Shown: piece after piece, positions 11,722-29,943 of the stretch
Layout: the number at the start of each line of letters is the position of its first letter
Position numbering within the stretch: position 1 is the first letter of the stretch
Assembly: GCA_019347895.1 (NCBI GenBank)
Contig: JAHWKM010000011.1
Location: 1-42,322, forward strand
Reading direction: 5' to 3'
Length of the DNA: 42,322 bases
Origin: Candidatus Parcubacteria bacterium
GTDB lineage: Bacteria > Patescibacteriota > Saccharimonadia > Saccharimonadales > 2-12-FULL-41-12
Translations under genes and position numbers: made by a program
Notes under the pieces: generated by a model
Told to the model about the DNA's origin: nothing
Database searches by the model: none
What the model saw: the letters and a program-made list of their open reading frames with translations, nothing else

Positions 11722-11840
11722 CTTATGACTGTCCAGTGCTGTCTTTTTGCCTCTAATGAGCTCTCTACGGGGTTCGCTTTGCTCTCGCCCGTGGCGCCCA
11801 GCGACTCAAACGATTCAAAAAGACAGCACCTAGTCTTATG
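11722..11840. repeat. Hairpin repeat element A
   Basis: Perfect 14-base arms (11736-11749 and 11816-11829) enclose 66 bases. The conserved core at 11758-11796 starts GAGCTCTCTACGGG and ends GCCCGTGGCG, and forms an ACGGG/CCCGT hairpin. The same core, with 4 mismatches in 39 bases, occurs on the opposite strand in element C at 29855-29893. The element is bordered by short direct repeats CTTATG (11722-11727 and 11835-11840), which could be a target-site duplication. It lies between the divergent ndh and lactate-dehydrogenase genes. Confidence 0.6.
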
Positions 11841-11846
11841 GTATAA

Positions 11847-11982
11847 AGACGCTTAGGCTTAGCCACCCACGCTTTTCGAAGGCGCAAGGGTTGCAAATGG
11901 AGAATGGACGAAATCGGCCATAAGCCGATTTCTCCTTCGCAATGCCTGGAGTGGAGAAAAGCGTGGGTGGCTCAGACGCTTA
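11847..11982. repeat. Hairpin repeat element B with terminal inverted repeats and flanking direct repeat
   Basis: Perfect 17-base inverted arms (11861-11877 and 11956-11972) surround an imperfect long hairpin with an apical GAAATCGGC/GCCGATTTC stem (11910-11932). The whole unit is bordered by an exact 9-base direct repeat AGACGCTTA (11847-11855 and 11974-11982). This is the anatomy of a small non-autonomous mobile element (MITE-like). It has no coding capacity. Together with element A it fills the 315-base gap between ndh and the lactate-dehydrogenase gene. Confidence 0.6.
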
Positions 11983-12004
11983 TGATAGACTAAAACTAGT
12001 AAGT

Positions 12005-29812: not shown

Positions 29813-29821
29813 ACCTTGTGA

Positions 29822-29916
29822 CATATTTATTTTCTGAATTGGAAGCGTTGCAAACGCCACGGGCTTGAGCACAGCGAAACCCGTAGAGAGCTCTTCCAAT
29901 TCAGAAAATAAATATG
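29822..29916. repeat. Hairpin repeat element C
   Basis: Perfect 24-base arms (29822-29845 and 29893-29916) flank a core that, read on the minus strand, begins GAGCTCTCTACGGG and ends GCCCGTGGCG (29893 down to 29855). The core differs from that of element A at 4 of 39 positions, while the arms are unrelated in sequence. An ACGGG/CCCGT stem and a GCGTT/AACGC stem (29845-29857) lie inside. It fills the gap between gnd and zwf and could also act as a terminator. Confidence 0.65.
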
Positions 29917-29943
29917 CTCTTTTGCATGTTAGTATATATTGAC

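Follow-up and report, generated by a model that had tools for sequence, protein, structure and literature searches.

The 42,322-nt stretch analyzed here (the window) contains two hairpins, designated A and C, which have a common centre and arms of their own. The question raised by these elements was whether they represent a selected RNA structure or a mobile family with compensating arms, the two possibilities that had been put forward from the sequence alone. Both were found to hold together, as indicated by further copies, covariation, target duplications, and an empty site. The hairpins belong to a real, mobile, and structurally selected family, which is unnamed as far as Rfam and the literature searched show.

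Two hairpins with a common core and private arms

A repeat search recovered the likeness of the two cores as a 39-nt inverted match between positions 11758-11796 and 29855-29893, identical at 35 of 39 positions (90%), the two elements being on opposite strands. Element A (11733-11833, minus strand) was matched by positions 1-100 of the covariance model R2 described below (E=8.7e-17). Its core (11758-11796) is enclosed by perfect 14-bp arms, located at 11816-11829 (5' arm on the sense strand) and 11736-11749 (3' arm on the sense strand), for which relatives display compensating arms. Element C (29819-29918, plus strand; R2 E=2.6e-19) is located between gnd and zwf. Its core (29855-29893) is enclosed by perfect 24-bp arms, the longest in the genome (5' arm, 29822-29845; 3' arm, 29893-29916). 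ORF calling confirmed that both elements are intergenic. The sequence-only reading had also considered the arms to be unrelated. In agreement with this, the arms of C and of other long-armed copies matched only their own partner across the genome, and the short arm of A had only chance-level matches with two mismatches elsewhere in the genome.

In a scan of the 907-kb genome, the top four perfect hairpin arms by length (24, 22, 22, and 21 bp) all proved to belong to members of the family. The longest perfect arms present in ten Markov-randomized genomes were only 13-14 bp. Thus, the 14-bp arms of A are unexceptional by themselves, and the membership of A rests on the shared core.

Copies, distribution, and covariation of the family

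The genome harboring the window (G000) contains at least six copies, five identified by core search and the sixth by covariance model. In addition to A and C, copies were located between pgk and tpiA, upstream from an rfbB-like gene, upstream from recA, and between trpB and trpA (these gene names were read from translations; gnd and zwf were named by NCBIfam). Each of the six copies has arms of its own. The elements are about 85-125 nt long and non-coding, within the 500-bp limit set for MITEs. Covariance models were built from the six copies (R1) and then from 26 copies (R2). Searches with R1 and R2 detected the hairpin in 28 of 393 sampled Saccharimonadales genomes belonging to several families. 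Further copies thus do exist, in the genome itself and beyond it, in additional genera and families of Saccharimonadales. Outside the order, a 380-genome sample of the phylum provided only two weak matches. Within genus g82, the hairpin was present in nine of 28 genomes of the genus, one of which (G307) has at least 17 matching stretches, some of them being two parts of one copy; copy numbers are minima throughout, as no more than 10-13 candidates were scored for each genome. Exact-pattern matches in contigs from Kiritimatiellaeota and Myxococcota (L013 and L014) were discarded as unrelated coding sequence devoid of arms. The absence of a named family with such a pattern was also upheld, since no Rfam covariance model matched and none was found in the literature searched.

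On the sense strand, the 5' half of the element consists of a variable arm, a short internal loop, the sequence GCTAGCGCCAC(R)GG or one close to it, and a bulged C, followed by a variable apical stem-loop, CC(Y)GTARAGCGC, an internal loop, and the complementary arm. Order-wide, the core conforms closely to GCTAGCGCCAC(R)GG-C-[variable apical stem]-CC(Y)GTARAGCGC, with slight variations. In alignment A2, changes of both partners were found for 28 of the 31 pairs, the 20 arm pairs all being among them, as anticipated for compensating arms. Pairing was observed in 91.7% of the cells of A2, compared with 61.2% in shuffles and 37-45% when the partners were slid; this alignment was fitted to the structure, and direct comparisons at shared sites agree with it. 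In A4, an alignment of g82 copies that was not fitted to the structure, compensating changes were present in 14 of 27 pairs. A nearly fixed centre flanked by arms that change together suggests a requirement for the fold as such, confined to one strand.

The genes flanking the copies have no common pathway, and their orientation relative to the hairpin is inconstant: tandem genes in the same (20) or opposite (15) direction, convergent genes (15), divergent genes (12), and insertions within ORFs (4), one additional in-ORF call being doubtful and four copies being located at contig edges. At one convergent site (L074 and L098; G013 C3:25785-26033), two copies on opposite strands are just 48 nt apart. 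Between carA and carB, the copies of G005 (L073) and G001 (L010) are oppositely oriented, possibly through an inversion of the loop, and the carB start codons are in or beside the arms. In g82 (L177-L206), the hairpin frequently forms the right-hand end of composite repeats of about 330 nt, the left part of which is a module of type X (..GTATCCTGCGTAACTC..) or Y (CGGGTCCTGCCGTCCGG..CACCGAACGTCACCCG), the latter possibly being itself a hairpin.

The copies of G216 (L080, L093, L097, and L101) have perfect arms of about 20-31 bp, some of which end in A-rich and T-rich stretches that could act as two-way terminators. These terminator-like ends are what speaks for considering the hairpins as bidirectional transcription terminators, an explanation to which we give hardly any credence, as the copies in the window are not followed by a U tract and many copies are located between divergent genes.

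Mobility of the hairpins

The family is mobile. Genome G064 contains at least 11 near-identical copies with ends CTGACCCAC..GTGGGTCAG, and target duplications flank all ten of the complete copies (eight perfect 9-bp duplications, one with 8/9 identity, and one of 10 bp). A second recent burst was found in G307. Inverted terminal repeats are present in the G064 copies and in the G000 copies; they are common within one burst and not between old copies. No target duplications were found at old copies, including A and C.

Comparison with a sister genome, G001, which belongs to the genus of the window, revealed an empty site: the recA promoter region of G001 retains both flanks and has neither core nor arms. 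The hairpin is also missing from the tpiA, rfb, and A intergenic regions of G001. The patchiness of the family leads us to infer a gain at the recA site in G000 rather than a loss in G001. Three independent in-frame insertions were detected in hisF (G005), priA (two species, counted as one ancestral event), and gatB (G359). HisF of G005, a genome of the same family as that of the window, contains in frame 37 residues in place of the 3-4 found in solved HisF structures. Together, the HisF comparison and the empty recA site indicate that both arms arrived with the insert. This speaks against two other origins, one in which the element entered the loop of a hairpin already present in the host and one in which a flank was copied by folding back. 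All in-ORF copies (hisF, priA, and gatB) are antisense to the host gene, plausibly because fewer stop codons occur in this orientation.

The CTGA ends and 9-bp duplications of the G064 copies presumably resemble those of IS10 and IS50. No DDE_Tnp_1 gene was detected in the 28 genomes examined, the positive controls being matched, and mobilization by an IS4-type transposase (IS4, IS10, or IS50 type) was rejected owing to the absence of PF01609 from the 28 genomes. In G064 and G307, the ends of the copies were detected on short copies only and not on any longer element, and no autonomous relative was found (the G064 assembly is 63% complete).

An additional hairpin, B, is located beside A (11858-11975, plus strand; fold z = -6.3). 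It has ends CTTAGCCACCC...GGGTGGCTCAG and belongs to a family of four loci in the genome. B is flanked by remnants of a target duplication, ACGCTTAGG on the left (11849-11857) and ACGCTTATG on the right (11976-11984), which display 8/9 identity. Among the B-related stretches found at three other loci of G000, the copy in contig C24 is flanked by a perfect duplication, ATCATTAGA. The ends of this sister of B, CTGAACCACCCGCACTTTTT, are close to the G064 ends CTGACCCACATGCACTTTTT, and R2 matched it at E=0.042. These sequence features are suggestive of a distant relationship of B, as the younger element, to A and C.

For short mobile palindromes, recognition normally depends on conserved ends, and copies decay after insertion; in MITEs, the terminal repeats are the part common to a family. 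The present hairpins are like MITE-type palindromes, such as Correia, ERIC, and RUP elements (PMC10969869), in being short, non-coding, palindromic, mostly intergenic, dispersed, and hairpin-forming, with target duplications on young copies and occasional in-frame insertions. They differ from MITEs in that it is the centre that is conserved, the arms being unrelated from one lineage to another and among the old copies of a given genome, and in that no autonomous partner was found. Rickettsia palindromic elements, of about 100-150 bp, insert in frame into unrelated genes (PMC10969869). The insertions tolerated in hisF, priA, and gatB are comparable to these elements, although in-frame insertions are here a minority, most copies being intergenic, and the arms vary and covary. 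REP and BIME palindromes, associated with RAYT transposases, are likewise dispersed intergenic hairpins. REPs are 20-40 bp long and grouped in tagged super-families (PMC3733652); the elements studied here are larger (85-125 nt) and have 9-bp duplications.

Selection at fixed sites and the selected strand

Genomes G261 and G169 (genus g104) have common copies upstream from gltX and ftsA. Four-fold degenerate positions of gltX have reached saturation between the two genomes (69% different), and yet a single base, inserted in the apical loop, is all that distinguishes the 42-nt cores at this site. Both partners were substituted in eight of the 29 arm pairs, and pairing is retained in each of these eight. 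The pattern is similar at the ftsA site (four-fold difference of 59.5%). At the priA site of genus g81 (four-fold difference of 49%), the core was kept and the arms and apical stem changed together. The apical stems have remained site-specific, that of the gltX copy being distinct from that of the ftsA copy in each of the two species, so that neither copy has simply been overwritten by the other. Convergent re-use of sites (uvrA, and gltX in G279) implies that some shared sites were not inherited; the selection argument uses only gltX and ftsA in g104 and priA in g81. Conservation at the shared sites thus exceeds the neutral expectation. The proposal that the arms evolve faster than neutral was dropped owing to the saturation of the four-fold sites.

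These comparisons bear on the possibility that the hairpins are plain selfish MITEs, with arms kept perfect by template-switch correction, cores that are merely young, and no selection after insertion. The recent bursts in G064 and G307 and the patchy presence of the family are in line with this explanation, which is nevertheless disfavored and in our estimation quite improbable. The gltX core differs by one base only while the four-fold sites are saturated, the young G064 copies include single uncompensated mismatches, and correction of the arms would generate no preference for G-U over A-C on one strand.

Such a preference was observed when the arms were aligned with G-U and A-C mismatches at equal cost. 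In the sense-strand arms of g82 copies, found by core sequence alone, 43 G-U and 6 A-C mismatches were counted. Outside g82, the counts were 63 G-U and 32 A-C, with nine groups favoring G-U, one favoring A-C, and three tied. The counts, both in g82 and elsewhere, include related copies that are not phylogenetically independent, so that p-values exaggerate the bias, and the set found by covariance model may slightly favor G-U. The G064 burst and the weak or odd model matches in G8_86, G109, G567, and G670 were left out of the tally. The excess was gone when the copies were oriented by neighboring genes (19 G-U and 31 A-C). The wobble-tolerant strand is the minus strand for A and the plus strand for C, the opposite of the strand printed in the sequence-only reading.

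Wobble therefore follows the strand of the element and not that of the host transcript, which argues against a purely double-stranded DNA signal and against a hairpin acting in cis in the mRNA. The latter would be an attenuator, a ribosome-site mask, or a processing site regulating the neighboring gene. This role is hinted at by copies that abut start codons with an AGAGG-type sequence nearby (rfbB and carB), and it appears very improbable in view of the inconstant orientation, the lack of a wobble bias along the mRNA strand, and flanking genes without a common pathway. A 5'-UTR regulator, considered since several copies precede start codons, was dropped in view of mixed orientation, in-ORF copies, and copies between convergent genes.

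We infer that the selected form is a single-stranded sense molecule, most likely RNA, with single-stranded DNA as the next reading. According to the latter, the folded sense strand would be recognized as DNA in mobility or replication, the core being the protein-binding part and the arms needing only to pair, without involvement of RNA, in parallel with attC sites and IS200/IS605 ends. The attC sites of integrons are single-strand hairpins recognized by shape on one strand, with conserved ends and a variable centre; the present hairpins share their one-strand character and differ in having a conserved centre and variable ends. Wobble tolerance on one strand independently of gene direction fits DNA as well as RNA, and mobility, together with recognition of structure rather than arm sequence, is compatible with a DNA hairpin. 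The 9-bp target duplications of the G064 copies count against it; to our knowledge, such duplications are not made by HUH or integron-type single-stranded DNA systems. In addition, a mobility signal alone leaves the conservation at old fixed sites unexplained. We regard the single-stranded DNA hairpin as unlikely.

We lean, by a modest degree, toward a MITE-like mobile element bearing a structured RNA specific to one strand; A and C would be old, fixed copies of it. The family inserts like a MITE, and what stays conserved afterwards resembles a structured RNA. They would belong to a non-autonomous hairpin element of Saccharimonadales, new copies of which insert as a unit with both arms and generate 9-bp target duplications, as seen in the one clear fresh burst of G064. 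Insertion would involve a transposase of the cut-and-paste type acting in trans. Some copies would subsequently be kept by selection, as demonstrated at the gltX and ftsA sites and presumed for A and C. Under selection, the core would keep its sequence and the arms would be free to change while still pairing. The wobble test supports the view that the selected molecule is a single strand from the sense strand of the element, regardless of the direction of the neighboring gene. This molecule would most likely be a small structured RNA closed by a long stem and transported as the cargo of the element, between its ends; the core might be bound by a cellular or element-specific protein. Since the flanks of the G064 copies differ at every copy, any promoter would necessarily be internal to the element. 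A more ambitious proposal, which we put forward tentatively and consider possible but doubtful, is a new class of mobile structured RNA. In this view, a functional hairpin RNA, specific to one strand, would be the invariable cargo of a transposon-like element and would be maintained at its sites by hosts whose genomes are among the smallest of bacteria, structure being the sole reason for keeping the arms.

The usual conservation of short mobile palindromes is thus reversed in this family, and it lasts where copies have become fixed, core genes such as priA included, in host genomes which, at about 1 Mb, can spare little space for junk. An RNA would be an undescribed structured RNA that spreads by transposition; a DNA hairpin would be a mobility or chromosome signal recognized by shape. 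Genetic methods exist for Saccharibacteria (PMC10633639), and both readings are directly testable in cultivated, tractable members.

A separate 12-nt motif, TTCTAACGGGAT, occurs at about 22 sites in G000, several of them forming facing pairs. The loci include C3:2405-2480 (L016), C15:3506-3586 (L029), C22:17784-17864 (L052), C22:25158-25243 (L058), C22:53722-53800 (L064), and C26:16443-16517 (L056). An ATG coincides with the motif or closely follows it, a GGAG-like stretch precedes it, and the overall appearance is that of a start-site or operator motif.
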